NCBI GenBank assembly: GCA_020634495.1
Contig: JACKBR010000055.1
Location: 1 to 29,257 of the forward strand
Source: Ardenticatenaceae bacterium
GTDB taxonomy: Bacteria; Chloroflexota; Anaerolineae; Promineifilales; Promineifilaceae
Direction: 5' to 3'
Length of the DNA stretch: 29,257 nt
Shown here: positions 1 to 29,257 of the stretch, one piece after another
How the letters are laid out: the number at the start of each line of letters is the position of its first letter
Numbering within the stretch: the first letter of the stretch is position 1
The notes under the pieces: generated by a model
Seen by the model: the letters and a program-made list of their open reading frames with translations, nothing else
Database searches by the model: none
Told to the model about the DNA's origin: nothing
Made by a program: the position numbers and the translations under genes

Positions 1-924
1 GTCTCAGCCATCAGCCCCGGCACGGAGATGCTGCTCTATCGCGGCCAAATGCCCGCCCAGCTGATGGCCGACGCCACGATTGCCGCGCTGGGCGAGGGGG
101 GGTATCCACAAAAATACGGCTATGCGGCCGTGGGGCGGGTGGTGGAAATTGGCAAATCGGTCGAAAACTCGTGGCGCGACCGGCTGGTTTTTGCCTTTCA
201 GCCGCACCAGAGCCACTTCATCGCCCGGCCAGAGGAGGTCTTGCCCCTGCCCGCTGCAATGCTGCCGGAAACGGCCGTCTTCCTACCGAACATGGAAACG
301 GCCGTCTCCTTCGTCATGGACGCGCAGCCGGGGATTGGCGAGCAGGTGGCCGTGTTTGGCCAGGGCATTGTGGGCTTGCTCACCACCAGCTTGCTGGCCC
401 AGCTGCCGCTCACCTGCCTGCTCACGCTGGATAGCTATCCGCTGCGCCGCGACTGGTCGCAAAAGCTCGGTGCCAGCACCAGCCTGGACTCAACGGCCCC
501 CGATTTAGCAAACCAAATTCTGGCAGCATTGCCCCATGCCAGCCACCATCCCGGCCTGGATTTAGCTTTTGAACTGTCCGGCAATCCGGCGGCTTTGGAT
601 GGGGCAATTGAGCTGATGGGGTTTAACGGCCGTATTCTCATCGGCTCCTGGTACGGCAGCAAGCGAGCTAATTTGAACCTGGGCGGCAAGTTTCATCGCA
701 GCCAGATTCAGCTCATTAGCAGCCAGGTGAGCCACCTTGCCCCGCGCTGGCAGGGGCGCTGGAGCAAAAAACGGCGCATGGCCGTCGCCTGGCAGATGTT
801 GGCCAAAGTGCAGCCGCAGCGGCTCATCACCCACCGCTTCCCGCTGGCGCAAGCGGCTGACGCTTATGAATTGATTGATCAAAAGCCGGAAACGGCCGTG
901 CAACTCATTTTCATTTATGATTAG
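1..924 (+). CDS. Zinc-free medium-chain dehydrogenase, BchC-like (5' partial)
   Basis: The frame is open from base 1, so the N-terminus lies outside the window; about 307 residues are visible. The visible start contains ISPGTEMLLYRG, which resembles the ISTGTE..L segment of BchC-type medium-chain dehydrogenases. In ordinary zinc alcohol dehydrogenases a CGTD segment with the catalytic zinc Cys sits there, so a catalytic zinc is probably absent. A Rossmann NAD(P) motif GQGIVG lies in the middle, followed by the usual nucleotide-binding half and a C-terminal catalytic-lobe return. It most likely oxidises or reduces an alcohol/ketone on a small molecule, substrate unknown. It heads a same-strand run with a pterin synthase homologue, a glycosyltransferase and a methyltransferase, suggesting a shared biosynthetic pathway. 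A true bacteriochlorophyll role is unlikely because no other bch gene is seen. Confidence 0.8.
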   Translation, partial: VSAISPGTEMLLYRGQMPAQLMADATIAALGEGGYPQKYGYAAVGRVVEIGKSVENSWRDRLVFAFQPHQSHFIARPEEVLPLPAAMLPETAVFLPNMETAVSFVMDAQPGIGEQVAVFGQGIVGLLTTSLLAQLPLTCLLTLDSYPLRRDWSQKLGASTSLDSTAPDLANQILAALPHASHHPGLDLAFELSGNPAALDGAIELMGFNGRILIGSWYGSKRANLNLGGKFHRSQIQLISSQVSHLAPRWQGRWSKKRRMAVAWQMLAKVQPQRLITHRFPLAQAADAYELIDQKPETAVQLIFIYD

Positions 925-950
925 CCACCTTTTAATTACCAACCACCAAT

Positions 951-1055
951 TGTCATTCTGACCGGAGGGAAGAATCCCTTTGAGGAGCATCCTGTAAACG
1001 CCACGCCCGCGAATGATGCCCTCCGTAGGGATGCTTCACTTCGTTCAGCATGACA
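951..1055. repeat. REP-like imperfect inverted repeat
   Basis: An intergenic element lies between the dehydrogenase and the pterin synthase homologue. Its ends, tgtcattctga (951-961) and tcagcatgaca (1045-1055), pair with one mismatch. Inner stretches containing gaatccc and agggatgc give further partial pairing. Translated in reverse it yields the CHAERSEAS-type phrase that I recall from dispersed REP-like elements in many bacterial genomes (memory, not checked). It ends about 20 bases before the next start codon and may form a hairpin in the transcript. Confidence 0.7.
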
Positions 1056-1074
1056 GCATTCGGAGGAATTATTC

Positions 1075-1458
1075 ATGTACACCGTTGCCGTTAAACGTGA
1101 TTTTGTCGCCCAGCACTTCCTCATCGGCGGGGATTGGGGGCCAGAAAACGAGTGGCACTCCCACCATTACGTCGTCGAGCTTCAGCTTAGTGGCCCCACG
1201 CTGGACCAGCATGGCTACCTGGTAGACATCGTAGACATCGAGGCCAATCTGGACGCGCTGGTAGCCACCTACAAAGACAAAACGCTCAATGACCTGCCCG
1301 CATTTGCCGGGCTCAACCCCAGCATCGAGCATTTCGCCCGCATCCTGGCCACCCAGCTCGCCGAGCGCATCCAGGCCAGCACGCTAAGCGAACTCACCGT
1401 GAAGATTTGGGAGAATGAGATTGCCTGGGCGTCGTTTCGGTTATCAGTGAGTCAGTAA
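1075..1458 (+). CDS. Divergent 6-pyruvoyl-tetrahydropterin synthase / QueD-family protein
   Basis: The protein has 127 residues, a normal length for the PTPS/QueD fold. The zinc-binding histidines are recognisable as H14 and as H28/H30 in EWHSHHY. E113 in WENE matches the Glu that anchors the pterin ring, and NPSIEHFA matches the family's PT-x-E-N-x-A helix. The catalytic machinery is altered: the Cys four residues before the HxH pair is Glu24, and the usual Asp-His dyad before LND appears as Lys67-Asp68. It is therefore probably not a standard queuosine-pathway QueD or a standard PTPS; it may bind a pterin-like substrate and catalyse a different step. A ggagga ribosome site precedes the ATG. 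The last codons and the stop lie in a repeat arm. The next gene downstream is a glycosyltransferase. Confidence 0.85.
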   Translation: MYTVAVKRDFVAQHFLIGGDWGPENEWHSHHYVVELQLSGPTLDQHGYLVDIVDIEANLDALVATYKDKTLNDLPAFAGLNPSIEHFARILATQLAERIQASTLSELTVKIWENEIAWASFRLSVSQ

Positions 1459-1506: not shown

Positions 1507-1532
1507 CTACTGAACACTGAATACTGCAAACT

Positions 1533-2621
1533 ATGAAAATAGGACTCATCATCTACGGCCGTCTCCAAACAATCTCCGGCGGCTACCTGTACGACCGCCA
1601 GCTGGTTGAGCATTTGGAAGCGGCTGGGGACGAGGTGGAAATCATCTCGCTGCCCTGGGAAGGATACGGCCGTTCCCTCCTGCACAACTTTTGGTTTGCC
1701 CTGGCCGAGCAGCTGCGCCAGGCTGAATTTGACCTGCTGCTGCAAGACGAGCTAAACCATCCGTCGCTGTTTTGGCTAAACGGCCGTCTCCGTGGCCAGG
1801 TTCCTTACCCAATCATCAGCATCGTCCACCACCTGCGCAGCAGCGAACTGCGCCCAAATTGGCAAAACTGGCTCTACCGCCAAATCGAGCGGCGCTACCT
1901 GGCCCCGGTGGATGGCTTCGTCTTCAACAGCCAGACCACGCGGCAGGTGGTGCAGTCGCTGGTGGGGGATGGCCAGCCGCACGTCGTGGCCCTGCCCGCT
2001 GGCGACCGCTTCCAGCCAGCGCTCACACCACAGCAAATTGAAGCGCGTGCCCAGCAGCCGGGGCCGCTGCGGCTGCTGTTTGTGGGCAATTTGATTGAGC
2101 GCAAAGGATTGCACATTTTATTGGAAGCGGTGGCGGGTTTGTCTCCGTCGGACTGGACGCTGGATGTGGTGGGGGATACGGCCGTATCCCCCCGCTACAC
2201 CCACCAAATCCAGCAAAAACTCAGCCCAAATGTCATCCTGCATGGCCCGCTTAGCGACGCCGAACTTGCCGCCAAGATGGCCCAAAGCCACCTGCTCGTC
2301 GTCCCCTCCAGCTACGAAGGCTTTGGCATCGTCTACCTGGAAGGCATGGGCTTTGGCCTGCCCGCCATCGCCGGGCGCGGCGGCGCAGCCCACGAAATCA
2401 TCACCCACGGCGTGGACGGCTTTCTGGCCGATGACGCCGCCACGCTGCGCCGCCATTTGCACACCCTGCACCACAACCGCGCCCAGCTCAGCCAAATGAG
2501 CCACGCCGCCCAAACCCGCTTCACCGCGCACCCTACCTGGACCGATTCCATGTCCCAAATTCGAGACTTCCTCCACTTCACAATTAAAAATTCACCATTC
2601 ACTATTCACAATTCATTATGA
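1533..2621 (+). CDS. Glycosyltransferase family 4 (GT-B fold)
   Basis: The 362-residue protein has the GT4 layout. The N-terminal Rossmann domain begins [11 protein letters not shown] with a glycine pair at 16-17. A hinge and the donor domain follow, with [12 protein letters not shown] (181-192, Lys191 in the phosphate-binding position). The E-x7-E motif is seen in [10 protein letters not shown] (E262 and E270), followed by [11 protein letters not shown]. It should transfer a sugar from a nucleotide-sugar to an acceptor in the cytoplasm; donor and acceptor cannot be read from sequence. Translational coupling to the methyltransferase (ATGA overlap) and the pterin-synthase homologue upstream suggest it modifies a small molecule rather than surface polysaccharide. 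The last dozen or so codons are encoded by an AT-rich repeat and look like an accidental extension. Confidence 0.9.
2578..2617. repeat. AT-rich word repeat inside the glycosyltransferase 3' end
   Basis: Successive variants of attcacaa and attcacta fill the last 40 bases of the glycosyltransferase and reach the ATG of the next gene. The encoded tail ([13 protein letters not shown]) has no resemblance to a GT4 C-terminus. It behaves like the other word-type repeats of this window, but here it is translated. Confidence 0.6.
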
Positions 2622-3569: not shown

Positions 3570-4319
3570 TTAGTAAAGAGATAGTGGACTGAACGGGGAG
3601 ATGAGGTAGGCGGCAAAAATCCCGCTGAGAAAGCCCCACAAGTGACCAGCCACAGAAATTTTGGCACCGTTGGGCAGCGTGCCGCGGCTGGTGAGCGTGT
3701 AATAAATGCGCTTGCGAAAGAACACAAACAGGATGACGGCTACGGCCGTTTTCCAGCTACCGGCAAATAACCCATGAGACACATCAAAGCTAAATAAGCC
3801 CAGCACCAGACCGCTGGCCCCAAGCTGTAGCCCCTTGGCCCCAAACAGCCAGACGCCAATCCCCTGAATTACAAACAGAAACAGAGCCACCGGCAGCAAA
3901 ATGGACAGCGTGGGCAAAATAAAGACGGCCACCCCCGCAAAAATAAGCAAGAGCCAGGTGTTGCCCATGAGATGGCCAAAATCGCCATGCACAAATGGGT
4001 AGGTAAACATGCGGATGAGGCTAAAGGAGCTGCCGGTGAGAAAGCCGAGACGATTGGTCAGCCCGCCCTTGAAGAAAAATTGATCCAGAAAGCGTAAGCC
4101 AAAGGTGGTGAAGAAGAGACCCGCGATAATTTTTACGGCCGTATCCACCCGGCTCATCACATCGGCCGTAGAACCGGCGTCCTGCGACAGGGCCACAAAC
4201 GTAGGCTGCTGCATCAACCACAGATACCCGCGAAACAAGGCAAAGCCCACCACAATGATGCTGCCAAAGGTAAAAAAGAACCAAATCGTCCCGAGGATTT
4301 TTCGTAAACGGCTGAACAT
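3570..4319 (-). CDS. Rhomboid-family intramembrane serine protease
   Basis: The protein has 249 residues from the ATG at 4319; an in-frame ATG at 4403 would add 28 residues that do not look like part of the fold. The hallmarks are all present: FVHGDFGHLMGN (H111, H116, N120) at the second core helix, the catalytic serine in LGASG (S169), and the catalytic histidine in GHLWGFLSG (H226). About six or seven hydrophobic helices are visible, with one before the rhomboid core. Such proteases cleave transmembrane segments of membrane proteins within the bilayer. The substrate is unknown. It has no obvious ribosome site and lies 259 bases from the next gene, so it is probably transcribed on its own. 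Confidence 0.9.
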   Translation of the reverse strand: MFSRLRKILGTIWFFFTFGSIIVVGFALFRGYLWLMQQPTFVALSQDAGSTADVMSRVDTAVKIIAGLFFTTFGLRFLDQFFFKGGLTNRLGFLTGSSFSLIRMFTYPFVHGDFGHLMGNTWLLLIFAGVAVFILPTLSILLPVALFLFVIQGIGVWLFGAKGLQLGASGLVLGLFSFDVSHGLFAGSWKTAVAVILFVFFRKRIYYTLTSRGTLPNGAKISVAGHLWGFLSGIFAAYLISPFSPLSLY

Positions 4320-4578: not shown

Positions 4579-4911
4579 TTATTTATCCATAACAAGCAAA
4601 ATGATCAAAATTACCTCAATGGCTTTGGTAACAAGCCCTAATCCACTTGTAAACGCATCAGGATTCATAACAAAATAAAGAATAATCGTCAGGGCAGTGT
4701 ACCCTACCAGTGCCCAGCGGAGCATGGCTTGCTGAGAGGCAAGCTGCGGCAAAAAGTAAAGGCCAGCTACCAGGGCTAGATAACCCAAAAAATTCAGGAT
4801 AAACAGCACATTACCAAATTGAATGCCTAAAATCAGGTGAATAACGGCCGTTGCCACCGTCAACCCCACAATTCCTTTTTGCCGACCTGATAATTTTGCA
4901 ACCATATCCAT
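4579..4911 (-). CDS. Small four-helix membrane protein, unknown function
   Basis: The protein has 110 residues starting MDMVAKLSGRQKG. This start is chosen because a strong gaggagg ribosome site lies nine bases upstream on the minus strand; the longer open frame to 5040 has no such site. After a short basic N-terminus there are four hydrophobic segments, roughly residues 12-30, 34-52, 60-80 and 88-108, with few charges. The pattern matches small DUF-type membrane proteins, but I recognise no family. It lies downstream of the lipid genes on the same strand, separated by 151 bases. The palindrome ACGGCCGT encodes T-A-V inside its first helix. Confidence 0.75.
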   Translation of the reverse strand: MDMVAKLSGRQKGIVGLTVATAVIHLILGIQFGNVLFILNFLGYLALVAGLYFLPQLASQQAMLRWALVGYTALTIILYFVMNPDAFTSGLGLVTKAIEVILIILLVMDK

Positions 4912-5062: not shown

Positions 5063-6037
5063 TTACGGCCGTATCCACGCCATCTTCAAACGCTGTCCCA
5101 TCCACCACAAGCCCAGCAGCCCCAGCGCCACATCTCGCAAACGAATGAGCAGGCTCAGGCTAAGGCCCACTGCCGGATTTAAGCCCATCATGCTCAAGGC
5201 CCACACCTGGCTGGCTTCCAGCGTGCCCAGCCCGCCTGGCAGCGGCAGCAAATAGGCCACCCGCGCCGCCGTCAGCAGGGTGATGACCTGCGCCAGCGTT
5301 ACCGGCCCGCCCAAAAACCGCACCATCAGGTAAAATTCGGCAATCATGAGCGCCCAGGCAAAACCAGCCAGACCAATTGCGCCCAACAATACCCTGGGGT
5401 TTTGCTGGCAAAGGGCATTCATTTGAGCTTCGCTGTGGCGCACGGCCGTTTCCCAACGATCCCACTTCAGCCCGTGCAGCAGCCAGCTAACCGGCTGTTT
5501 TCCACGCCAAATCAGCGCCAAATAAAATGCAGGGGGCCATAAAAGCAGCAAAATCCAAACGGCCGTGCGGCCGCCCACCGCTTCCCCCAGCAAGCCAGTT
5601 TGCACCACCAGCAGCACGCCTAAAGCCAAAATACCAAAATTGAGCAGCAGTTCTACCGTTTTGTCCAGCGAAACGGCGGCAATTGCCACCGGGCGCGGCA
5701 CGCCATGCTGCCGTTCAACCAACAGCACCTGCACCGGCTCGCCGCCAAACTGCGGCCCCGGCGTAAAGTAGCTCACGCCAAACGCCGCCAACCGGTGCCC
5801 CAGCAGCGGCCAAAAAGACAGTTCATGCCCCAACCCCCGCAAAAGCAGCCACCAACGGCCGTTCAAAGCCAGCAGCACCCAGCCATTCAGCGCCACCAAC
5901 ACAACCAGATGCCAGCCACGCAGCCCGGCCAACATCTCCACCACCGCCTCCAAAGGCACCGAGCGCACCACCAGCCACAACAAAAACAGCGCCGCGCCCC
6001 ACACGCCAACTGACCAAACCCACTTTTTACTTTTCAC
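5063..6037 (-). CDS. Lysylphosphatidylglycerol synthase TM-domain / UPF0104 flippase-like protein
   Basis: The protein has 324 residues with about eight hydrophobic helices and no soluble catalytic domain. The family signatures are the long first helix, the segment GVSYFTPGPQFGGEPVQVLLVERQHG (G-E-P central), VSLDKTVELL and PLPGGLGTLEAS near the C-terminus. Stand-alone proteins of this family resemble the flippase half of MprF and the AglD/UPF0104 group and are thought to move lipid-linked molecules. The start is a GTG, and the first codons (MKSKKW) fall inside a word-type repeat. The stop codon is formed by the edge of an ACGGCCGT palindrome. It lies just downstream of the CDP-alcohol phosphatidyltransferase, so the two probably act on the same lipid. 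Confidence 0.88.
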   Translation of the reverse strand: MKSKKWVWSVGVWGAALFLLWLVVRSVPLEAVVEMLAGLRGWHLVVLVALNGWVLLALNGRWWLLLRGLGHELSFWPLLGHRLAAFGVSYFTPGPQFGGEPVQVLLVERQHGVPRPVAIAAVSLDKTVELLLNFGILALGVLLVVQTGLLGEAVGGRTAVWILLLLWPPAFYLALIWRGKQPVSWLLHGLKWDRWETAVRHSEAQMNALCQQNPRVLLGAIGLAGFAWALMIAEFYLMVRFLGGPVTLAQVITLLTAARVAYLLPLPGGLGTLEASQVWALSMMGLNPAVGLSLSLLIRLRDVALGLLGLWWMGQRLKMAWIRP

Positions 6038-6120: not shown

Positions 6121-7296
6121 CGCCCGCCGCAGCAAAAACCGCTCCTCTGGCTTCCAATGGGAGAGCGGCCCCGTACCCAGCAGCATGAGGCAAACGGCCG
6201 TTGCCAAACCAAGCCCGTTGGCCCAACTCAATCCCCGCGTCACCATGTCGAACCCCAGCGGGAAAACCAGCCAGAACGCCGCCAGCCGCCCCATGGTACC
6301 CAACAAGACAAGACCACCGCCCAGCAGCAGCAACACCAGCGCCACCATTGCTAAAAAGGCGGGCAGAGGCAGCCCCCAGCCCGTGAACAGCGCCACCCAG
6401 GCGGGCGGTGGCCACGCCTGCGGCAGCGCTAGAAAAATTGCCGAGACACAGCTGCCCAGCGCCAGCCGAAAAAGCGGCGGCAACCAGCGTGTTGTGGTCT
6501 GGTAGAGCCATTGCTGCACCTGCCGGTAACGCACACTCTGCGCATCTAATCGGCCAGTCACCAGAAACCAGTCGCGCAAAAAGCCCAGGGCAGTGGGGAT
6601 GGCAAACATCGTTCCGGCAATGGTGGCAAATTCGGGGGGCATAATCGGCCAGAGCACGGCGCTCATAAAGCCCATTTGGAACCCGGCAAAAACGCGACGA
6701 TGCACGCTGTGGGGCAAATTGTGGCTGGGCAGGCCCCGTCGCGCCCGCAGCCAGAGGCCAAAGACAAACAGGTAGCGCGCCAGGCCCAGAACCAAATACC
6801 ACCAGGGCAGCTGCCCATACCACACCGCCAGCAGGCTCACGATGAGCATCCCCAGGCCGTCGTATTCCATGTCCAGCCGCTCGCCCAGCCGGGTGGCGTG
6901 GTTGGTGATGCGCGCCAGGTAGCCATCCAGATAATCGGCCACGTCGGCGGCGGTGTAGAGCAGCATGGGCAGCCAGGCCAGCCAGCCAGCGGGCCAGGGG
7001 CTAAACAAAAAGCCCGCCACCATGCTGATGGCCAGCCCGCGCAGCAAAGTCAGCCGGTTGCCCCAGCCAAATGTGGGCAGCACGGCCGTTTCTCCCCTGC
7101 GCCTATTTTCAGCCAAATTGCTGCCCACCACCCACAAACAGTAGAGCAGCGGCGGCAGGGTAAGCGCCAGCCAACGGTTGGCGGCTTCAATTTGCCACAC
7201 TTGCCGCAGCCAGAAGTAGAAAAGGAGTACGGCCGTTCCCCAGCCAACTGCCAGCCACAGCCAATGTCTTCTTAATTTTTTCAATTGTGCTTCCAC
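6109..7296 (-). CDS. CDP-alcohol phosphatidyltransferase family membrane protein
   Basis: The protein has 395 residues. It carries the complete family motif D-x2-D-G-x2-A-R-x8-G-x3-D-x3-D: D121, D124, G125, A128, R129, G138, D142 and D146. This is preceded by the usual GNRLTLLRG segment (79-87). The aspartates bind two metal ions, and the enzyme joins a CDP-linked alcohol or diacylglycerol to a second alcohol, releasing CMP. At twice the usual ~200 residues, it has extra membrane helices on both sides, including about four after residue 270. The exact lipid cannot be assigned. The start is GTG; the C-terminal codons lie in the gtcaccct array. Linked to the flippase-like gene downstream. Confidence 0.9.
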   Translation of the reverse strand: MEAQLKKLRRHWLWLAVGWGTAVLLFYFWLRQVWQIEAANRWLALTLPPLLYCLWVVGSNLAENRRRGETAVLPTFGWGNRLTLLRGLAISMVAGFLFSPWPAGWLAWLPMLLYTAADVADYLDGYLARITNHATRLGERLDMEYDGLGMLIVSLLAVWYGQLPWWYLVLGLARYLFVFGLWLRARRGLPSHNLPHSVHRRVFAGFQMGFMSAVLWPIMPPEFATIAGTMFAIPTALGFLRDWFLVTGRLDAQSVRYRQVQQWLYQTTTRWLPPLFRLALGSCVSAIFLALPQAWPPPAWVALFTGWGLPLPAFLAMVALVLLLLGGGLVLLGTMGRLAAFWLVFPLGFDMVTRGLSWANGLGLATAVCLMLLGTGPLSHWKPEERFLLRRAGEG

Positions 7297-7508: not shown

Positions 7509-8024
7509 ATGAGCAGACGAATCAAAATCAAGGTTCGCCCCCAACAAACAATATCCTTCCCCGGCATTTGCGTCCAATGCAGCCAGCCTGCCCCGGAAAC
7601 GATGACACTCCGGCAGCGGTACGGCCGTATCACCCGCATCATCGACGTGCCCCTGTGCAGCCGCTGCGCTGGCGAACTCAACCGCCGCTCCGCCGAAGAA
7701 GAACGGTTGCAAAAAATTAGCTGGCTGCTCAGCGGCGTTTTGTTTTTGTTGGGATTAGCTATCACGCTGCTGCTCACGCCAGCGGCCCTCTCATTTGGGC
7801 TGCGGCTGCTTATTGCTTTGCTCGTTGGGGGTGGCTTGGTAACGGCCGTATTGTGGAGCTTCTGCAAACCGATTGCCAACGCCGCCTTACCAGAAAAGCA
7901 AGCTATCCGCCAATCCGTAATCATCGACGATTTTAGCTGGCGGGCCACCACCTTTGCCTTTGAAAACGATCTATTTGCCGACCGTTTTAGCGAGCTAAAT
8001 ACAGCTCGCCTGATGGAAATTTAG
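7509..8024 (+). CDS. Zinc-ribbon protein with two membrane helices, unknown function
   Basis: The protein has 171 residues. Two Cys pairs, CVQC (C21, C24) and CSRC (C50, C53), make a four-cysteine zinc ribbon in the N-terminal soluble part. Two adjacent hydrophobic helices follow at about 69-90 and 94-115, and a soluble C-terminal tail of about 55 residues ends the protein. I do not recognise a named family. Zinc-ribbon plus paired-helix proteins are common in bacteria and rarely characterised. It stands alone, with a candidate promoter upstream and repeat hairpins downstream, and is not coupled to etfB, whose start is about 200 bases away. Confidence 0.75.
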   Translation: MSRRIKIKVRPQQTISFPGICVQCSQPAPETMTLRQRYGRITRIIDVPLCSRCAGELNRRSAEEERLQKISWLLSGVLFLLGLAITLLLTPAALSFGLRLLIALLVGGGLVTAVLWSFCKPIANAALPEKQAIRQSVIIDDFSWRATTFAFENDLFADRFSELNTARLMEI

Positions 8025-19860: not shown

Positions 19861-20229
19861 ATGAGCAACGAAATCAATGAGTTGAAAAATAAAGAAATCC
19901 GCAGCGGTCAAAATGGCAACGTCGTCATGGCCATTGTTTTTATCATCGTAGGTGTGGTTTTAATTTTTGGCAACGTTACGGGACTTACCTTCGATAACTG
20001 GTGGGTATTGTTTATGCTGATTCCGGTTGGCTTTTTTGTTCAAGGCATCTACCGGGATTACCAGGCAAACGGCCGTCTCACCCAACACAGCACCGGCTTC
20101 ATCATGGTCACCCTGGCCATCCTCGCTTCTGCGGCCGTTTTCATCTTTGAAGCCCTCACCTGGGGCATGATCTGGCCCGTCGGCCTCATCTTCGCTGGCC
20201 TTGCCATCTTCCTGGGCAACCGGTCTTAA
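19861..20229 (+). CDS. LiaI/LiaF transmembrane-like (DUF5668-type) protein
   Basis: The protein has 122 residues from the ATG at 19861, preceded by aaggag with seven bases spacing. Four hydrophobic segments are seen at about 21-39, 47-64, 78-97 and 102-119, in two hairpins. Motifs such as VVMAIVFIIVGVVLIFGN and WWVLFMLIPVGFF resemble the membrane domain of LiaI/LiaF (DUF5668), but the C-terminal soluble LiaF domain is missing. In Firmicutes, LiaF holds the kinase LiaS in check. Here two LiaS-like kinases and a LiaR-like regulator lie downstream, so a modulating role in envelope-stress sensing is plausible, though inferred. The exporter ATPase follows after about 130 bases. Confidence 0.7.
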   Translation: MSNEINELKNKEIRSGQNGNVVMAIVFIIVGVVLIFGNVTGLTFDNWWVLFMLIPVGFFVQGIYRDYQANGRLTQHSTGFIMVTLAILASAAVFIFEALTWGMIWPVGLIFAGLAIFLGNRS

Positions 20230-21342: not shown

Positions 21343-22083
21343 ATGATGAACGCTTTACGAAAAATGACCTGGGTTGAATTTAAACTCGCTCTTCGGGAAC
21401 CGATTGCTACCTTTTTTACGCTGGTTTTCCCGGTTTTGATCTTGTTTCTGTTTGGCAGCATTTACGGCAACGAGCCATCTGAATTTTTAGGTGGGCGGGG
21501 CAATGTTGATAATTCTGTGCCCGGCTACATCGCCATGGTGATTGCCACCACGGGCATGATGAGCCTGCCCATTGGCCTGGCCACCTACCGCGAGCTGGGC
21601 GTGCTGCGCCGCTATCGCGCCACGCCGCTGCGCCCGCAAACGCTGTTGGGGGCGCGCATCATTGTGCATACGCTGATTTCGGTGATTGGTTCGGCCGTTT
21701 TAATTGCTGCGGGTGTGCTGGTGTACGACATGGTGCTGCCGGTGAACATTCCCGCGCTCATTGCGGCCTTCTTGCTGGGTAACGTTAGCTTTTTGGCGGT
21801 TGGCTTTTTGCTGGCCAGCGTTTTGCCTAATGCCAACACGGCAACGGCCGTTGGCATGGCCCTGCTCTACCCGATGTTGTTTTTATCTGGTGCTGGGCTG
21901 CCCCGCGAAATTTTGCCGGATAACCTGGTAACCGTCGGCAACTTCCTGCCGCTAACGCACGTGGTGGATTTGCTTAAAGATGTCTGGTACAGCAACACCT
22001 GGAATCTGACGGCCGTAGCTGTGGTGATTGGCATGATGCTGGTGGCGGGAGCGGTTTCCGTGCGCACCTTCCGCTGGGAATAA
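21343..22083 (+). CDS. ABC-2 type exporter permease (DrrB-like)
   Basis: The protein has 246 residues from the first of two adjacent ATGs (21343), with aagga upstream; the frame extends to 21304 but without a site. It has six hydrophobic helices in the ABC-2 arrangement. The conserved cytoplasmic loop after helix two is seen as TYRELGVLRRYRATPLRPQTLLGARI. The late PMLFLSGAGLPREILPD...FLPLTHVVDLLKDVW segment is typical of DrrB/ABC-2 permeases. It forms the membrane channel for the DrrA-like ATPase upstream, probably as a homodimer. The gene is followed by a strong hairpin with a T-tract, which separates it from the kinase genes. Confidence 0.93.
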   Translation: MMNALRKMTWVEFKLALREPIATFFTLVFPVLILFLFGSIYGNEPSEFLGGRGNVDNSVPGYIAMVIATTGMMSLPIGLATYRELGVLRRYRATPLRPQTLLGARIIVHTLISVIGSAVLIAAGVLVYDMVLPVNIPALIAAFLLGNVSFLAVGFLLASVLPNANTATAVGMALLYPMLFLSGAGLPREILPDNLVTVGNFLPLTHVVDLLKDVWYSNTWNLTAVAVVIGMMLVAGAVSVRTFRWE

Positions 22084-22227: not shown

Positions 22228-23877
22228 ATGACGCGAGAAACGGCCGTTTCCAACCAATCCCCCCCAAAAAGCCACCGCCTTAAAACATGGCTGGCTGAAC
22301 TGCGCGACGTGAAATGGCCCTGGGTCGTTTTTCCGGGCCTGGCCGTTGGGGTTATCAACATCATCATCGTTGGCACCGTCATCTCCATTTACGCCTCAAT
22401 TCTCTCTATTGAGTTTCAATCTCCAGAGGCTACGGCCGATGCTGTTGCCGAAGGGGCGGCCCTGATCGCCACGTACCTGTCGCCCCCGGTGCAGTTCCTC
22501 ACCACCATTTGGGTGGCCTACCTCGTTTGCAAACGGCAGGGAACGGCCGTTGCCTGGTACGGTCTGCTTATCGGAGCCATGAGCGGCCTGGCAGCGGCTC
22601 TTCAAGTGGCGTTTTTTGCCGGAATTCCCCGCGAGATTTTGCTGGACGCGACGTTGCTGACCTTTTTCCCGGCTCCCATGCTGGCTGGCTGGATTGGCGC
22701 ACGGCGCAGCCAGGTAGCGCTGGCCGGGCAAGAGAGACTTTACCGGGCCAGCCAGGCCATTGCCCACGCCCACACCCCACTCACAATTGTCAACGCCATT
22801 GGCACCCACCTGGCCAAGGCCAACGTTAACCAGATTGGTCTGTGGGAAATATTGCTGCAAGGGGAAGGGGGTCGGCCAACGGCCGTATCCCTGCTGGCCG
22901 CCTGGTCTGGCCAAAACAACGAAAGCTGGCAGCCTGGGCTACAGCTCACCGCCGACACAACCCACTCACTCAACCAATTGTCCAGCGAAAACAGCCTGCA
23001 AATTAAAGCCATTGACTTGCCCGCAGCGGAAAAGGCAAGCTGGGAATCATTGGGCGCGCGCTCTGCTTTGCTCATTCCGTTGGTGACGCCCCTGGGCAAC
23101 TGGGTTGGGCTGCTTACCATCACCTCACCCGCCAACAGTGGGCTTTCGCGCAGCAGCGAGCAAGATTTTGTAACGATTGCCGCCCAGGTAGCGCTGGTTT
23201 TAGATAATTTACGGTTGGTGGCCCAGGCGCAGGAAACGGCCGTTCTCCGTGAGCGGCAGCGATTGGCCAGAGAAATTCACGACACGCTGGCCCAAGGCTT
23301 CACCAGCATTGTGATGCACCTGGAAGCCGCCGAGCAGGCGCTGCCCACCGACCAGGAAGTGACGGAGCGCCATCTGAACCAGGCACGCAGCACCGCCCGC
23401 GACAGCCTGGCCCAGGCCCGCCGCGTGGTGGACGATTTGCGCCCGGAGCTGCTGGAAAGCACCCCGTTCGACCAGGCGATTGGCCGGGTGGTGGAACAAT
23501 GGGCGGCTCACAGCGGCGTGGCGGCCGAATTTAAGGTGACGGGAGAAATACGGCCGCTCCATCCCCAGGTAGAAGTGACCCTGCTGCGCAGCAGCCAGGA
23601 AGCATTGGCCAACATTCGCAAGCACGCCCAGGCCAGCAGCGCCTGCGTCACGCTTTCTTATTTGGGCGACACGGTGATTTTGGATGTGGAAGATAATGGC
23701 AAAGGTCTGGTGACTGCGGCATCAACGCCCGATGGACTGACCAGCGGCGGCTTTGGTCTGGTGGCCATGCGCGAGCGGGTGGCTCAACTGGGCGGCGAAC
23801 TGTTTGTGGAAAGTGAACCGGGTGAAGGAACAACACTGTCGATATCATTGCCTTTGGAAAATGGAGCAGCAAGCTAA
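22228..23877 (+). CDS. LiaS/DesK-type sensor histidine kinase with membrane and GAF domains
   Basis: The protein has 549 residues from the ATG at 22228. Two earlier ATGs (22216, 22219) would add four residues but overlap a TATAAT at 22212-22217. The N-terminal part has four hydrophobic helices (about 30-160), followed by a GAF-like domain (about 170-330). The HisKA_3 phosphoacceptor lies in RQRLAREIHDTLAQGF (His351). The ATPase domain has EALANIRKHAQ (N-box), DVEDNGKGL and GGFGLVAMRERV. It autophosphorylates and passes phosphate to a NarL-type regulator, here most likely the one at 25171. It is followed by a second, related kinase whose ATG overlaps its stop by one base. Confidence 0.94.
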   Translation: MTRETAVSNQSPPKSHRLKTWLAELRDVKWPWVVFPGLAVGVINIIIVGTVISIYASILSIEFQSPEATADAVAEGAALIATYLSPPVQFLTTIWVAYLVCKRQGTAVAWYGLLIGAMSGLAAALQVAFFAGIPREILLDATLLTFFPAPMLAGWIGARRSQVALAGQERLYRASQAIAHAHTPLTIVNAIGTHLAKANVNQIGLWEILLQGEGGRPTAVSLLAAWSGQNNESWQPGLQLTADTTHSLNQLSSENSLQIKAIDLPAAEKASWESLGARSALLIPLVTPLGNWVGLLTITSPANSGLSRSSEQDFVTIAAQVALVLDNLRLVAQAQETAVLRERQRLAREIHDTLAQGFTSIVMHLEAAEQALPTDQEVTERHLNQARSTARDSLAQARRVVDDLRPELLESTPFDQAIGRVVEQWAAHSGVAAEFKVTGEIRPLHPQVEVTLLRSSQEALANIRKHAQASSACVTLSYLGDTVILDVEDNGKGLVTAASTPDGLTSGGFGLVAMRERVAQLGGELFVESEPGEGTTLSISLPLENGAAS

Positions 23878-25103
23878 TGAGCGATATTTTGGCCAGGGTA
23901 CAGGCGGATGGGGAGCAAAACAATCGTTTCTGGCAGCGGTTTCAGTTGTTGTGGTCGGGGATGTTTGTGGTGGCAACGGCCGTTTCCGCCGCGCTAGGCT
24001 GGCAGGTGGAAGCGCAAACGTCCAGCCAGCGGCTGCTGGGGCTGGCACTGTGCCTGCTGCTGATTGGCATCCATCTGGGACAGCAGTGGATTGCCTCTAG
24101 CTCGAAACATGGCCGCGCTTCGCTGCGCGTCAGCCTACCCTACATTATTTTCAGCATCGTCGCCTGGTTTTTGCTTATTCGCATCAGCCCCATTTATTAC
24201 CTGGTGCTGTTTGGTCTATTTAGCCAGATTTATGTTTCCCTGCCGCTGCGCTACGCCTCCGCTGCGGCCATCGTCGTTGCCGCTCTGATGGCCTACAACC
24301 AGACGATTGATTCGGGAGACGCTTTCTCCTGGCAGATTGGCCTGATTTACCTGCTGATGGGCGCTGCCAGCGTGGTGCTGGGTGCCTGGATTCACGCCAT
24401 CATTCAAAAGAGTGAGGAGCGGCGCGAACTGCTCAACCAGCTCCAGGCCACCCAGGCAGAGCTGGCCGAGGCGGAACGAAAGGCTGGCATTTTGGCCGAG
24501 CGGCAGCGGCTGGCCCACGAAATTCACGACACGCTGGCGCAGGGCTTCATCAGCATCATCATGCACCTGGAAACGGCCGAACAATCCATTCCACCCGCCG
24601 ATAGCGAAGCGGCCCGACAAGTTCAGCTTGCCAAAGAAACCGCCCGCCACAATTTACAGGCCGCTCGCCGCGTCGTGGCCGATTTACGCCCAGAGCCATT
24701 AGAAAACCAATCGCTGCCCGCTGCCATCGAGCGCACCGTGCAGCGTTGGAGTTTGCAGCACAATGTTGCCGCCACCATGCAAACCACCGGCTCGCCGCTG
24801 CCGCTGCACCCCGATGTGGACGTGACGCTGCTGCGGGCCACGCAAGAAGCGCTGGCCAACATTCACAAACACGCCCAGGCACAAAACGTCAGCGTCACCC
24901 TCTCTTACATGGGCGATTCGGTGCTGCTAGACGTGCAGGATGACGGCGTGGGGCTGAACGGGGCAAAACCTTCGCCGTTTGGCGGCGGCTTTGGCCTGCA
25001 AGCAATGCGCGAACGGGCAGCCCAGTTTGGCGGCGACCTGCTGCTGGAAAGCGAGCCGGAGGGCGGAACGACGCTGGTGGTGTCAATACCTGTTGGAGAT
25101 TAG
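23877..25103 (+). CDS. Second LiaS/DesK-type sensor histidine kinase, paralogue of the preceding
   Basis: The protein has 408 residues. About six hydrophobic helices (25-175) make a membrane sensor with no GAF domain. A coiled linker (180-207) leads to the phosphoacceptor RQRLAHEIHDTLAQGF (His217) and an intact ATPase domain with EALANIHKHAQ, DVQDDGVGL and GGFGLQAMRERAAQ. The catalytic half is closely similar to that of the upstream kinase, including ISIIMHLETAEQ versus TSIVMHLEAAEQ, which points to tandem duplication with different sensor halves. Translation is coupled (TAATG overlap). Its last two codons and stop fall in a word-type repeat. Both kinases presumably signal to the single regulator downstream, or form heterodimers (inference). 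Confidence 0.94.
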   Translation: MSDILARVQADGEQNNRFWQRFQLLWSGMFVVATAVSAALGWQVEAQTSSQRLLGLALCLLLIGIHLGQQWIASSSKHGRASLRVSLPYIIFSIVAWFLLIRISPIYYLVLFGLFSQIYVSLPLRYASAAAIVVAALMAYNQTIDSGDAFSWQIGLIYLLMGAASVVLGAWIHAIIQKSEERRELLNQLQATQAELAEAERKAGILAERQRLAHEIHDTLAQGFISIIMHLETAEQSIPPADSEAARQVQLAKETARHNLQAARRVVADLRPEPLENQSLPAAIERTVQRWSLQHNVAATMQTTGSPLPLHPDVDVTLLRATQEALANIHKHAQAQNVSVTLSYMGDSVLLDVQDDGVGLNGAKPSPFGGGFGLQAMRERAAQFGGDLLLESEPEGGTTLVVSIPVGD

Positions 25104-25170: not shown

Positions 25171-25806
25171 ATGGATACGATACGCTTAATTTTAGTAGAC
25201 GACCATCCGGTGGTGCGGGAAGGGCTGGCGGGGATGCTGGCCGGACAGCCAGATTTTGACGTGGTAGCGACAGCAACCGATGGCTCTGAGGCGCTGCGGC
25301 TGGATGCCGAGCACAAGCCGGACGTCATTTTGATGGATTTGCGGATGCCAGGGATGGATGGGGTGACGGCGATTGGGGAGATTAAGGGGAAACGGCCGTC
25401 TGCCAACATCCTCGTCCTGACCACTTACGACAGCGACGCCGACATTCTGCGGGCCATCGAAGCGGGAGCCACGGGCTACCTGCTCAAGGACACCCCCCGC
25501 GAAGAGCTGTACCGCGCCATTCGCGCCGCCGCCAACGGTGAATCGGTGCTGGCCCCGGCCGTGGCCGCCCGCCTCATGACCCGGATGCGCGCCCCCGCCG
25601 AAGAAAACCTGAGCGCTCGTGAAATTGAAGTGTTGCAGCTTGTGTCCAAGGGTGCCAGCAATCGGGAAATCGGCAAGAGTTTGCACATTAGCACCGCCAC
25701 CGTCAAGACCCACCTCATCCACATTTTCAACAAGCTGGGGGTGGCTGATCGGACTGCGGCCGTAACGGTTGCTCTAGAACGCCAAATCATCACACTTAAC
25801 CAGTAG
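25171..25806 (+). CDS. NarL/LiaR-family response regulator
   Basis: The protein has 211 residues; aagga lies upstream of the ATG. The receiver domain has the acidic pair D10-D11, phosphoacceptor D56 in ILMDLRMPGMDG, T84 in LVLTTYD and K106 in YLLKDTPREE. A LuxR-type helix-turn-helix (about 147-205) reads LSAREIEVLQLVSKGASNREIGKSL and continues with STATVKTHL. Phosphorylation by the two upstream kinases should make it dimerise and bind DNA. Plausible targets are the exporter genes on either side, but no binding site is defined. ACGGCCGT falls here in its rarest frame, giving Arg-Pro. Confidence 0.96.
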   Translation: MDTIRLILVDDHPVVREGLAGMLAGQPDFDVVATATDGSEALRLDAEHKPDVILMDLRMPGMDGVTAIGEIKGKRPSANILVLTTYDSDADILRAIEAGATGYLLKDTPREELYRAIRAAANGESVLAPAVAARLMTRMRAPAEENLSAREIEVLQLVSKGASNREIGKSLHISTATVKTHLIHIFNKLGVADRTAAVTVALERQIITLNQ

Positions 25807-25966: not shown

Positions 25967-26746
25967 ATGACCAGTTGGGCCATTGAAACACGGGGACTCA
26001 CCCGCCAATTTGACAAGAAAATTGCGGTAGACAATCTTGACCTTGCCGTGTCCGCCGGGGAGTTTTTTGGCTTTTTGGGGCCGAATGGCGCGGGCAAAAG
26101 CACCACCATCAACATGCTGGTCGGTTTGCTGCGGCCCACCAGCGGAACGGCCGTTATCGACGGCATCGACATTTGGGAAGACCCGCTGAAAGCCAAAGCC
26201 CGTATTGGCGTGCTGCCAGAAGGGATGCAGCTGTATCAACGGCTCACGGCGCGAGAATACATTCGCTTTGCCGGAACAATGTACGGCGTGTCCAAGGCTG
26301 AAGTAGAACAGCGCACCGAAGAACTGCTGGATTTGCTCACCCTCACTGACGATGCAGACAAGCTGATTGTGGATTATTCGCACGGGATGCGGAAGAAGAC
26401 GGCGCTGGCGGCGGCGATCATTCACGCACCCCGCGTACTCTTTTTGGATGAGCCTTTTGAGGGCATCGATGCCATTTCTGGCCGGATCATCCGCGATGTG
26501 CTGGGGCGGCTGCGCGAGCACGGCACGACGATCTTTTTCTCGTCCCATATTTTGGAGGTGGTAGAGCGGTTGTGTACGCGGGTGGCGGTGATTGCCGACG
26601 GCCGTTTGGTAGCCCAGGGCAGTATGGCAGAGCTGCGGCAGCAGGCAGAAACCGGCGATGAAACCACGCTGGAAGAGCTGTTCTTGCGGGCCGTGGGAGC
26701 CAGCAACGACCTGGAAGCCGAAGGCAGATTGTCATGGCTCCGCTAA
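25967..26746 (+). CDS. ABC transporter ATP-binding protein (second exporter)
   Basis: The protein has 259 residues. Walker A is GPNGAGKS (38-45), and the signature is the variant YSHGMRKK (137-144) instead of LSGGQ, as found in a subgroup of ABC-2/CcmA-like ATPases. Walker B is VLFLDE (157-162), with EGID for the D-loop and His194 in SSHILEVVE as the switch. It overlaps the following large membrane protein by 13 bases, so the two are made together and presumably form one transporter. Location directly after the response regulator may mean joint control. The substrate is unknown. Confidence 0.93.
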   Translation: MTSWAIETRGLTRQFDKKIAVDNLDLAVSAGEFFGFLGPNGAGKSTTINMLVGLLRPTSGTAVIDGIDIWEDPLKAKARIGVLPEGMQLYQRLTAREYIRFAGTMYGVSKAEVEQRTEELLDLLTLTDDADKLIVDYSHGMRKKTALAAAIIHAPRVLFLDEPFEGIDAISGRIIRDVLGRLREHGTTIFFSSHILEVVERLCTRVAVIADGRLVAQGSMAELRQQAETGDETTLEELFLRAVGASNDLEAEGRLSWLR

Positions 26747-28446
26747 GCAAACCAGGGGCAAATCGCTCTTTGCTGGGAACGCTGTTCCGGCTGCGCGGCA
26801 AGCTGACGGTGCGCCAGTTTAGCCGGGAGAAAGGGCGCATCATTGGGGCAATTATCGTCGCTTTGGTCTTTGGCCCCATGATTATTGCCGCCGCCGTAGG
26901 CACGGCAACGGGCTACCGCGCCTTAGAAGATCATTGGCCCACCGCACTGCTGGGAGGCGTGCTGGTGGCGATGTGGTTTATTTGGCTGGGCTTTCCCATT
27001 ATTGCAACGGCCGTCAACGAAAGCGCCGACATCACCCGCCTGCTCATCTTCCCCATCTCCCGCCGCGACCTGATTCTAAGCACGCTGCTGGGCACATTGT
27101 TTGATTATCCCACTTATTTGGTGCTCCCCCTGTTCATCGCCATTTTTATTGGTTTTGGCTTTAGCAGCATCTTTCCCATTGTTATTTTGGCCATTCTGTT
27201 GAGCTACGGCCACATGGTGCTCATTGGGCAATTTATCACCATTGCCATTGGCGGCATTTTGCAAAGCCGCCGCTTCCGCGATATTGCCATTATTTTCTTT
27301 TCGCTGTTGGGCAGTTCTTGCTACTTTATCAACCTTGCCTTTCAAAGCGGGCTAGAGCGCTTTACCGATTCACTTTCTTTACAAGAAGAAGAAGCTTTTG
27401 TTGAGACTTTTGCTAACTGGCAGCCGCTCGACACGCTGCAATGGTTTCCGACGGGGGCACCGGCACGGGCGGTAGAGCAGGCGTTGGCTGGGGCCTGGCT
27501 GCCTGCGCTGCTGTGGTTGCTTTATTCGGCCGTTTTGCTGGCAGCTATCACCTGGGTCTGGTTCCAGCTCATGACGCGGCTGGCGACTGGGGGTGGCTTT
27601 CTCGTTGGCGGACGGCCGCAGGCAGAAAAAGAGAAGCCAGTGGTGCAAAAAGCCGCCCGGCGCAGCGTGTTGAATTGGCTGCCAGAAGATTTGGCCATGC
27701 TGGTAGGCAAGGAACTGCGCTCGGTGTGGCGCGTGCCGCAGCGACGGGTGGGTATGCTGCAAGGTGTGCTTATCCCATTTTTTATGATGGGGCCTTTTTT
27801 GTTTACTGGCGGCAATATTACCGGCGGCGTTTCGGCCATCCCCAGCTGGTTTGGCCTGTCGCTGCCCGTGTATGCCCTCTTTTTGTTTTGGGTAAATTCA
27901 CAAAATATGCTGGCCTGGGAAGGGCGCGGGCTGCCGTCGCTGCTGCTGACGCCGCTGCCGCGCTGGCGCATATTCCTGGCCAAGGGATTGGTCTTTTTGC
28001 TCATTGCCGGAACGCCGTTCCTGATTGTGAGCGGGCTGGCGATAGCGGCTTTGAAAAGCTGGGTTACCACGTATGGCATGTTCATTGGTTTGGGGATGGG
28101 AGCCGCCTCTATTGCGGTAACGGCCGTTGGCTCCGTCCTCTTCCCCTCCCCCATAAACCTGGAAGCCAAACGCACTCGCGGCTCTTTCCAGTCCGGCGGA
28201 AACCTAAAAACAGGCTGTGCGGTGGTAACCATCGTTCCCATCAGCATTGCAGTAGTGAATCTGCCAGCCGGAGCGCTGCTGGGGTTGGCCTACTACTTTA
28301 ATCTTCCCTGGCTGGGCGCTGTAGGGGCCGTGTTTAGCCTGGTGTACGGGGCTGGCATTTTGTATGCTGGCTGCCGGTTGGCAGGCAATTTGCTGCAAGA
28401 GCGCGAACCGGAACTGGTAGCCACCATGAAGCTGCCAGATGATTAA
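26734..28446 (+). CDS. Large ABC transporter permease-like membrane protein
   Basis: The protein has 570 residues with about twelve hydrophobic helices in two similar-sized halves separated by a soluble stretch (about 285-330). The first half contains ATAVNESADITRLLIFPISRRDLI, and the second a comparable LAWEGRGLPSLLLTPLPRWRIFLAKG. The repeated pattern of helix, polar segment, L-x-x-P-x-x-R and helix suggests a fused dimer of an ABC-2-type permease. It overlaps and probably partners the preceding ATPase. Similar 500-600-residue permeases accompany YSHGMRKK-type ATPases in several phyla (general knowledge, not checked). The transported compound is unknown. Confidence 0.82.
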   Translation: MAPLSKPGANRSLLGTLFRLRGKLTVRQFSREKGRIIGAIIVALVFGPMIIAAAVGTATGYRALEDHWPTALLGGVLVAMWFIWLGFPIIATAVNESADITRLLIFPISRRDLILSTLLGTLFDYPTYLVLPLFIAIFIGFGFSSIFPIVILAILLSYGHMVLIGQFITIAIGGILQSRRFRDIAIIFFSLLGSSCYFINLAFQSGLERFTDSLSLQEEEAFVETFANWQPLDTLQWFPTGAPARAVEQALAGAWLPALLWLLYSAVLLAAITWVWFQLMTRLATGGGFLVGGRPQAEKEKPVVQKAARRSVLNWLPEDLAMLVGKELRSVWRVPQRRVGMLQGVLIPFFMMGPFLFTGGNITGGVSAIPSWFGLSLPVYALFLFWVNSQNMLAWEGRGLPSLLLTPLPRWRIFLAKGLVFLLIAGTPFLIVSGLAIAALKSWVTTYGMFIGLGMGAASIAVTAVGSVLFPSPINLEAKRTRGSFQSGGNLKTGCAVVTIVPISIAVVNLPAGALLGLAYYFNLPWLGAVGAVFSLVYGAGILYAGCRLAGNLLQEREPELVATMKLPDD

Positions 28447-28462
28447 ATACCTGTCCGCCTAT

Positions 28463-28523
28463 TAGCCACAGAGTTCACAGAGGTTTTTAAGTTTAGGTTC
28501 AAACTATCTTGAATCTCTTTTTT
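28463..28523. repeat. cacagag-family repeat, inverted copy of 17515-17583
   Basis: It begins tagccacagagttcacagag and matches the minus strand of the 17515-17583 element across about 58 bases. The distal arm that would close the hairpin is missing here, so this is a half-element. A run of T bases (28518-28523) lies at its end. Confidence 0.8.
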
Positions 28524-28551
28524 GTTCCGTTGCTTTTTGGAGGCGTTTCCC

Positions 28552-29257
28552 ATGTCCTTTTTCCCTTCGTTGGCTAATTTTGAACCAACCCGGCAAACCC
28601 TGCACTGGTACAGCCAGGCCGTGGGCGTGGTGCCGCGGGTACATGGCATTGCCCACCCGAAGTGGTGGCACATCAGCCTGAAGCTGCGGCCCGATGGGCT
28701 GATCACAGACAATATTCCCCTGCCGGATGGTGGCGTTTTGGCCCTGCGTCTGGATTTTCATCAGCATCAGCTGGTGGTGGCCAACAGCAGCGGCGAGACA
28801 AAAACGGCCGATTTGCAGGATGGGTTGACGGGCAGCGAGATGGGGGAATGGGTGATTACGGCCGTCTCCCAATTTGGTCTTCAGGGCAAATATCCCCACG
28901 AAAAATTCAGCAACGACGCGCCACGCCACTACGACCCTGAACTGGCCCAGCGTTACTTTAGCGTGCTTACCAACGTCGCCCGCACCTTTGAGACCCACCG
29001 CGCCAGCCTGGAAGGCCCCGTAAGTCCCGTGCAGGTTTGGCCCCACGGCTTTGATATTGCCTTTGAATGGTTTGGCACTCGCGTGGAACGGGGCGAGGAA
29101 CATGGCGAGGTGCAAGAATTCCCTTCACAGCTCAACCTGGGCTTTTACCCTGGCAGCGAAGGCACAGCCCCATACTTTTACTCCAACCCCTGGCCGTTTG
29201 AAGCTGAACTGCTGGACAAGCCGCTGCCGCCAGGGGCCAGCTGGCATACAGCTGGCT
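28552..29257 (+). CDS. DUF5996-family protein (3' partial)
   Basis: The frame is open from the ATG at 28552, which has ggagg eight bases upstream, to the window edge: 235 codons without a stop. The features match DUF5996: LHWYSQAVGVV near residues 18-28, then HPKWWHISLKLRPDGLITDNIPLP, LRLDFHQHQLVV, a middle part with HYDPELAQRYFSVL, VSPVQVWPHGFDIAFEWFGTR, and the ending segment LNLGFYPGSEGTAPYFYSNP. The conserved W/H residues suggest a binding or catalytic site, but no function is known to me. It seems to be a single gene after the second exporter and is not obviously linked to it. Confidence 0.85.
   Translation, partial: MSFFPSLANFEPTRQTLHWYSQAVGVVPRVHGIAHPKWWHISLKLRPDGLITDNIPLPDGGVLALRLDFHQHQLVVANSSGETKTADLQDGLTGSEMGEWVITAVSQFGLQGKYPHEKFSNDAPRHYDPELAQRYFSVLTNVARTFETHRASLEGPVSPVQVWPHGFDIAFEWFGTRVERGEEHGEVQEFPSQLNLGFYPGSEGTAPYFYSNPWPFEAELLDKPLPPGASWHTAG

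Follow-up and report, generated by a model that had tools for sequence, protein, structure and literature searches.

Why should a single eight-base palindrome, ACGGCCGT, stand 64 times in a stretch of bacterial DNA where chance would place fewer than three copies? The stretch is contig JACKBR010000055.1, 29,257 bases long and 56.4% GC, which we analyzed whole and call the window. Exact copies number 64, the first beginning at position 271 and the last ending at 28865, as a first-pass annotation had estimated when it counted about 64 in 29.3 kb. In 100 dinucleotide-preserving shuffles of the window the word appeared 0.44 times on average and 3 times at most. Markov models of order 0, 1, 2 and 3 give expectations of 0.70, 0.49, 1.05 and 2.6, an excess of 25- to 130-fold depending on the model; the annotation's figure of about 90-fold agrees with the order 0 expectation. 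Because the next-ranking palindromic octamers reach 3 copies each, with none higher, ACGGCCGT is singular in the window, and the outcome that the annotation named as counting against it, many 8-mers being equally enriched, is not found there. The core hexamer CGGCCG occurs 88 times, 64 of them inside ACGGCCGT. Near-matches, which had been described as common, are so for the outer changes to G or T (GCGGCCGT, 9 against 3.4 expected at order 2, and TCGGCCGT, 8 against 1.45); the third outer change, CCGGCCGT, is not (2 against 3.1), and inner single-change neighbors number 0 to 3 each.

One answer might be that the octamer simply follows from the usage of codons or amino acids, or from a high GC content. 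Counting on the 25 open reading frames (ORFs) that we took as genes, with four of the 29 listed ORFs left out, 56 of the 64 copies are coding (37 on the + strand and 19 on the −) and 8 lie outside ORFs, so the word does occur on both gene strands and in intergenic DNA, as first described. Consistent with a coding origin, 39 of the 56 coding copies sit in the Thr-Ala-Val phase. Against it, all three phases are used (39, 15 and 2 copies), intergenic copies exist, and the Markov expectation is 0.5 to 2.6. Two further results, given below, bear on the same point: the behavior of the reversed word and of synonymous codons.

Is the repeat a property of the window or of its lineage? Genome-wide counts come from the genomes of relatives (G numbers denote genomes and L numbers loci), the first set being 50 related Chloroflexota genomes. 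A search with ETF-alpha gave 573 relatives; among the best 80, 79 were labelled Chloroflexota-type and one Bacteroidetes, and the nearest stood at 93%. The nearest row on the resulting tree is L013 (93% over 587 columns), and a methyltransferase-like protein in the L013 genome has a relative at 86% named Candidatus Leptofilum (Promineifilaceae). As L013 is nearest on the tree and its protein's relative is so named, the window's host is probably close to that genus. ACGGCCGT proved to be iterated in 21 of the 50 genomes (G001 to G014, G016 to G021 and G024), at 2,887 to 15,176 copies each, so that looking in related Chloroflexota, as the annotation had suggested, bore fruit. Densities run from 0.44 (G013) to 2.1 per kb; the reversed word, as a control, has 55 to 459 copies in the same 21 genomes, which also argues against a by-product of composition or coding. 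We classed G033 apart: it has 19,906 CGGCCG in mixed flanks, and the octamer, with 2,982 copies (0.51 per kb), makes up 15% of them. Altogether the octamer was counted in 101 distinct genomes (50 in the first set and 56 in a second batch, 5 being common). Among the 51 further genomes, more than 6,000 copies were found in three, G180 (6,514 in 4.1 Mb), G349 and G414; G198 has 0.42 per kb. A highly iterated palindrome (HIP) in the sense of Elhai 2015 is one GC-rich palindromic octamer found genome-wide, well in excess of expectation, at about 0.5 to 2.5 per kb, and it is nearly certain that ACGGCCGT is a repeat of this type, in an Anaerolineae-like clade of the Chloroflexota.

Sister lineages keep the core CGGCCG and switch the outer pair to T/A or G/C. 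In samples of 54 to 74 kb, TCGGCCGA makes up 99 of 118 CGGCCG in G036 and 66 of 95 in G046, and GCGGCCGC 139 of 151 in G029. Across the 24 genomes of the first set with a single dominant octamer, the outer base is A in 21 and T in two. Five others (G022, G023, G025, G026 and G028) have CGGCCG at 1.3 to 3.1 times expectation, judged on one locus each, with no dominant octamer, and in many more distant genomes the hexamer is nearly absent. A wider draw of genomes from the class shows the opposite extreme, CGGCCG being almost gone from G283 (2 in 5.3 Mb), G396 (7 in 6.0 Mb) and others.

Other words vary as well. G027 iterates a different octamer, TGCCGGCA (3,665 copies in 4.0 Mb), which accounts for 27 of 53 GCCGGC in its samples; the same word occurs 886 times in G015, a genome nearly without ACGGCCGT. 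Three genomes of the class draw, G078, G111 and G139, have 23,000 to 25,000 GCCGGC in about 3 Mb, with no single dominant octamer in samples of G078 and G111. Close relatives of the window's host strongly avoid GCCGGC, as if it were restricted: G002 has 40 in 398 kb against 1,043 CGGCCG. The observed-to-expected ratio is near 0.1 for both L013 and L002 and reaches 0.8 for L001.

If the octamer matters to the cell, then individual copies may be kept in place between genomes. Aligned with L013 at 81% nucleotide identity, the window shows 33 of 37 copies kept, compared with 81 of 301 control octamers (27%); 13 of 16 are kept against L002 and 12 of 17 against L001. In the more diverged pair L319/L321 (74.5% identity) the figures are 14 of 20 for ACGGCCGT and 9 of 258 (3%) for controls, and the weakest pair with at least 10 copies, L017/L020, still keeps 4 of 10 against 15% for its control. 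Our broader list holds 18 pairs, one of them without an alignment; ten were pooled, and 352 of 415 octamer copies are kept over them. In this pooling, which counts each pair from both sides and in which pairs share genomes, retention of the hexamer is graded by its flanks: 361 of 415 (87%) with both flanks right, 75 of 122 (61%) with one, and 32 of 84 (38%) with neither, the last equal to control palindromic hexamers (206 of 550, 37%). It is this gradient that points most clearly to the reading of eight bases. Where a copy is lost, the difference amounts to one to five bases (a single base in 18 of 63), so single-step losses do occur.

Synonymous codons inside copies tell the same story. Between the window and L013, 59 of 62 are kept, where 39 (63%) would be expected from the same codons elsewhere; 25 of 25 are kept against L002 and 25 of 27 against L001. 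Such conservation, together with the phases, the intergenic copies and the reversed-word counts, makes a coding or compositional by-product next to inconceivable. Since copies are conserved in position, retention is graded by the flanks and synonymous codons are kept, we are highly confident that ACGGCCGT is constrained at the level of the octamer; the conserved unit is the octamer and not CGGCCG alone.

What would hold the copies in place? In the explanation that we prefer, copies would stay at old, conserved positions because all eight bases are read by some component of the cell, and lost copies would mostly be purged or reverted, by selection or by biased repair. A functionless ratchet would need no such use: in the GmeC-dependent model of Elhai, methyl-directed mismatch repair makes and restores copies as a by-product. 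As excerpted, that model requires a G before the methylated C and predicts about one site per 1000 bases (PMC4390886). The 0.44 to 2.1 per kb seen here are consistent with its density. So are the neighbors in 398 kb of G002 with its action, inner single-change neighbors being halved (69 against 139 expected, 0.5-fold) while outer G and outer T neighbors are enriched (2.5- and 4.4-fold; outer C, 0.59-fold), much as the deviation of the cyanobacterial palindrome HIP1 is greatest at its outer positions; and opposite 9 of the 122 half-flanked hexamers the partner genome has a full copy. However, the model rewards G before a methylated first C, and the outer base here is usually A, which argues against the GmeC form of the ratchet. 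Methylation of an inner C would give GC whatever the flank, leaving the flank preference unexplained. MutH was found in 0 of 50 genomes, with the E. coli control detected, though the model postulates only a MutH analogue. We consider the ratchet unlikely; the earlier proposal of a purely self-propagating mutational bias is weakened by these results and no further.

Which protein could be the reader? Among the methylases, three families were sifted and set aside. C5 cytosine methylases (PF00145) occur in 23 of 50 genomes and are missing from many that have the repeat, for example G003 to G008 and G012 to G014. Plain PF01555 enzymes have no strong match in G001, G006, G008, G012 and G013, where part of the weak matches are the candidate described next. 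D12 enzymes (PF02086) match in 45 of 50 genomes, and as ten of ten tested pass the Dam cut-off, they were put aside as putative GATC enzymes; when two were set against solved structures, the nearest was E. coli Dam for one and DpnM for the other. The Dam-like enzymes (L143, L141, L145, L149 and L150) are of two types. By sequence, G001, G002 and G012, the window's closest relatives, have the E. coli Dam type (L143 scores 278 bits to 2g1p), and other relatives have the DpnM type.

Left after this sifting of methylases common to repeat-bearing genomes was a DNA-methyltransferase-like protein of about 650 residues, our candidate reader. Its S-adenosylmethionine (SAM) motif, DPMMGGGTT, stands close to the N-terminus, and DPPY(F/Y)DS(V/I)QY(S/G)DLAAFF lies around residue 475. 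In three such proteins PF01555 matches at 41 to 55 bits (cut-off 26.7), with its halves in permuted order; the Pfam family DUF1156 scores 18.1 and 16.3 bits, below its cut-off of 24, in two and gives no match in the third; and NF042963, whose cut-off is 1000, gives 71 to 76 bits. A structure predicted from 65 sequences (predicted local distance difference test score 87.6) places the candidate in the class I methyltransferase fold. By Z score its best structural matches are Trm14 and Trm11 (15.7, 179 residues, root-mean-square deviation 2.5), and Foldseek matches include CcrM (E 2e-3) and a DNA cytosine-N4 enzyme (E 2e-2); the Foldseek and VIA-align matches to this model point to a shared methyltransferase fold, not to a specificity. 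Motifs, Pfam score and modelled fold together mark it as a putative PF01555-type DNA amino-methylase.

If the candidate reads the octamer, then the two should occur together. Of the 50 genomes in the first set 29 have the candidate, namely every one of the 21 ACGGCCGT genomes, the three flank-switched ones (G029, G036 and G046) and five with mixed flanks; it is in pieces in G001, G003, G013 and G036. On single loci, CGGCCG stands at 1.34 times expectation or more in 29 of 29 genomes with the candidate and at 1.07 times or less in 18 of 21 without, the exceptions being G031, G032 and G033. We repeated the comparison on the class draw of 396 genomes, which overlaps the first set, calling the hexamer enriched at a ratio of 2 over the reversed hexamer plus one site per kb and the candidate present at 1.2 bits per residue or more, fragments included. 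With three candidates scored per genome, enrichment was seen in 20 of 51 genomes with the candidate and 5 of 345 without (Fisher p 1.2e-15, uncorrected for kinship); a recheck of 28 genomes, scoring every candidate, left 26 without an orthologue. The candidate's tree, from which rows under 440 residues (G013 and G349) were dropped and in which the paralogue G172 was retained, resembles the ETF tree in supported groups when the two are compared by eye. G015 nests within the ACGGCCGT clade on the ETF tree (96/94), has no candidate and holds 155 copies of ACGGCCGT in 4.7 Mb; if its assembly is complete enough, it would represent one independent joint loss of candidate and word.

Several observations weigh against the candidate as reader. 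As 20 of 51 genomes with it are enriched and so are 5 of 345 without it, the candidate does not guarantee enrichment in these assemblies and is not strictly required for it. The other 31 of the 51 fall below the enrichment threshold, and G124, G197 and G223 have close candidate homologues with CGGCCG ratios of only 0.36 to 0.55; in these three and G238, which have the candidate and no CGGCCG excess, no other iterated palindrome stood out in 4.9 to 20 kb each. Conversely, G180 is enriched in ACGGCCGT without the candidate, and G198, G384, G032, G033 and, on one locus, G031 are rich in mixed-flank CGGCCG without it. The ACGGCCGT class is also of our own setting: by count alone G033, which lacks an orthologue, joins it, and the candidate is then in 21 of 22. 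Fragmented metagenome assemblies make absences unsure. Lastly, the DPPY motif is commoner in adenine methylases, and GCGGCCGC contains no adenine.

The solitary methyltransferase for CGGCCG that the first-pass annotation predicted is therefore matched in part: a candidate has been found by sequence, the conserved unit is the octamer and not the hexamer, and the association has exceptions both ways. The association itself is observed; that the candidate binds and methylates the octamer as its reader is a reading that we find about as easy to accept as to doubt. It would be the likeliest reader, as it largely shares the clade's history and is retained where the outer pair switched. Separately, G198, G384, G032 and G033, with 3.0 to 5.1 CGGCCG per kb in mixed flanks and no candidate orthologue, possibly have another driver of the same hexamer.

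How the copies are placed bears on a different answer, that the octamer binds a chromosome-organizing or segregation protein and the candidate is a fellow passenger of the clade. The window's copies, all exact matches and listed without strand, lie at 271..278, 298..305, 626..633, 892..899, 1555..1562, 1666..1673, 1780..1787, 2178..2185, 3742..3749, 4135..4142, 4844..4851, 5065..5072, 5442..5449, 5559..5566, 5855..5862, 6194..6201, 7082..7089, 7229..7236, 7621..7628, 7842..7849, 8262..8269, 10101..10108, 10186..10193, 10411..10418, 10762..10769, 10838..10845, 10951..10958, 11218..11225, 11378..11385, 11697..11704, 11876..11883, 12582..12589, 12822..12829, 13265..13272, 14060..14067, 14290..14297, 15089..15096, 15595..15602, 15988..15995, 16084..16091, 16922..16929, 17173..17180, 17257..17264, 17673..17680, 17873..17880, 17999..18006, 18342..18349, 18423..18430, 19546..19553, 19717..19724, 20069..20076, 21844..21851, 22009..22016, 22240..22247, 22543..22550, 22879..22886, 23236..23243, 23976..23983, 25392..25399, 26147..26154, 26598..26605, 27007..27014, 28120..28127 and 28858..28865. 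They are spread rather than clustered, as first described, with near-random spacing (coefficient of variation (CV) 0.89, compared with 0.98 +- 0.11). Gaps under 50 bases are rare (1 against 6.5 at random), and in three G002 stretches they occur at about half the random frequency. This shortage of close pairs is consistent with an organizing site, as are the octamer-level constraint with both flanks read and the exceptions to the candidate-repeat link. Against such a site, copies are uneven on two G002 contigs (CV 2.37 and 1.20), largely due to copy-free islands, and the candidate is kept in both flank-switched lineages and absent from G015, which nearly lost the word. An organizing site is, in our judgment, improbable. 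Also in the window, 11441-13372 on the − strand encodes a protein of 643 residues in which DUF5671 is matched over three stretches and DUF3842 barely above its cut-off.

Could the word instead be a DNA uptake sequence, preferred by competence machinery and spread and preserved by recombination? In the excerpted account, uptake words arise by changes in existing sequence and are imposed by molecular drive (PMC1939737). Consistent with uptake, a 25.8-kb stretch of G002 (L206-L207, G002:C90, about 103-129 kb; GC 0.47) holds no copies. Nine ORFs were examined there: TnsA, TniB and TniQ domains account for three, a fourth is a C5 methylase and a fifth has a restriction endonuclease domain, so the stretch looks like a Tn7-like element with restriction-modification cargo. 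On the other hand, known uptake words, as the same excerpt presents them, are not palindromes (PMC1939737), and some contigs filed as viral carry the octamer densely. Our sample of viral-filed contigs, 221 loci from capped scans that were chosen for two close ACGGCCGT copies and hence biased upward, includes three contigs longer than 13 kb with 3.0 to 3.7 copies per kb. Together, the copy-free island and the dense viral-filed contigs indicate that mobile DNA can lack or carry ACGGCCGT. An uptake sequence seems to us very unlikely. The three dense contigs, L383, L415 and L369, carry 49, 47 and 44 copies, the first two in 13 kb and the third in 14.7 kb, and so are above their hosts' genome averages in density. 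L383 has genes for ParA, RadC, an FtsK-like protein and a lytic transglycosylase and could be either phage or plasmid. Viral carriers of the candidate were looked for as well and set aside, the matches at 13 loci being partial and weak.

What might a read octamer be used for? The sole lead is a gene neighborhood: in several lineages nurA comes immediately after the candidate gene on its strand (5 of 20 neighborhoods: G005, G019, G029, G036 and G046). In G005, G036 and G046, three of three tested, herA follows after a conserved gene of about 210 residues. NurA is also encoded on the candidate's contig and strand in G003 and G020, and 4 kb off in G414. Two facts count against reading much into this: adjacency is found in a minority of neighborhoods, and 55 of 59 genomes have NurA, mostly once, whether they carry the repeat or not. 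As it looks like a housekeeping repair nuclease, the nurA link is only a lead. No restriction partner was found, in that no neighbor family recurs in more than 6 of 20 neighborhoods and, of 13 listed shared clusters, the 8 annotated include one NurA and no restriction enzyme. A role for the octamer in repair or recombination is a doubtful possibility. We find it distinctly improbable that the candidate, NurA and HerA work as a single system whose octamer marks, set along the chromosome, show HerA-NurA resection where to stop or which DNA belongs to the cell; if true, the octamer would be a palindromic, possibly methylated counterpart of Chi, and HIP1 would be the cyanobacterial case of a wider class in which the outer base is set by reader specificity, not mutation.

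In the preferred explanation the likeliest use would be genome maintenance: with about one copy per 0.5 to 1 kb in most of these genomes, the octamer would be a dense, inherited mark by which repair or end resection could distinguish old DNA from new, or the cell's own from foreign. Taken whole, this model of a constrained HIP-type octamer, read by the candidate and used in genome maintenance, is one in which we place middling confidence. The repeat in any case reaches beyond what was claimed for the window, to a constrained, lineage-switching octamer with what appears to be a good candidate reader.

How does this compare with known systems? Like uptake sequences and Chi, ACGGCCGT is a short word, highly repeated and kept genome-wide. 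Chi is not palindromic and acts with RecBCD. Uptake sequences differ in the same respect, not being palindromic in the excerpted account (PMC1939737). The candidate resembles the DUF1156 / HmaB / PglX-type methyltransferases in matching NF042963 and the PADLOC PglXI/HmaB models over parts of its methylase region. It differs from them in scoring below both curated cut-offs, for DUF1156 and NF042963, and in its neighborhoods, with no neighbor family common to more than 6 of 20 and 8 annotated clusters without a restriction enzyme. The cyanobacterial M.Ssp6803II is not known to belong to a restriction system. Its target GGCC lies within ACGGCCGT, and it is, in the excerpt of PMC6560206, an N4-methylcytosine (m4C) enzyme; the widespread D12 enzymes here, unlike it, score as Dam (10 of 10 tested), none being identified for GGCC.

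The closest comparison is with HIP1 (GCGATCGC), named in 1995 according to a reference title. In open-licence PubMed Central (PMC), the literature on highly iterated palindromes looks cyanobacterial as judged from titles and the start of abstracts, and searches there gave no match for a HIP1-type palindrome in Chloroflexi, HIP1 in other phyla, ACGGCCGT overrepresentation, a CGGCCG methylation motif in metagenomes, or Candidatus Leptofilum with Chloroflexota. The first-pass annotation had likened the octamer to HIP1, and the likeness extends to density, palindromic form, outer-base deviation, lineage switching and association with a methyltransferase-like protein. Set beside the excerpts of Elhai 2015 (PMC4390886), both are palindromic GC-rich octamers at hundreds to thousands per Mb, both deviate most at the outer positions, both switch the outer base by lineage (TCGATCGA in cyanobacteria, T or G here), and both are associated with methyltransferases or, here, a methyltransferase-like protein. 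By sequence and by host, Chloroflexota, ACGGCCGT is not HIP1 proper; its density, outer-position deviations and alternate forms in relatives (TCGGCCGA and GCGGCCGC) are those of a HIP. Because the core CGGCCG replaces HIP1's CGATCG, ACGGCCGT lacks the GATC site of Dam. The flank is usually A, which the GmeC repair model, as excerpted, does not predict, and the protein is DUF1156-like and of about 650 residues, whereas the enzymes named for HIP1 there are 5-methylcytosine (m5C) or m4C enzymes for CGATCG (PMC4390886). A HIP-type repeat in a second phylum, in mostly uncultured Chloroflexota, makes the unexplained HIP1 puzzle testable there. With its different core, its changes of flank, its graded octamer conservation and a named candidate, this independent case can tell apart hypotheses between which cyanobacteria by themselves do not decide.

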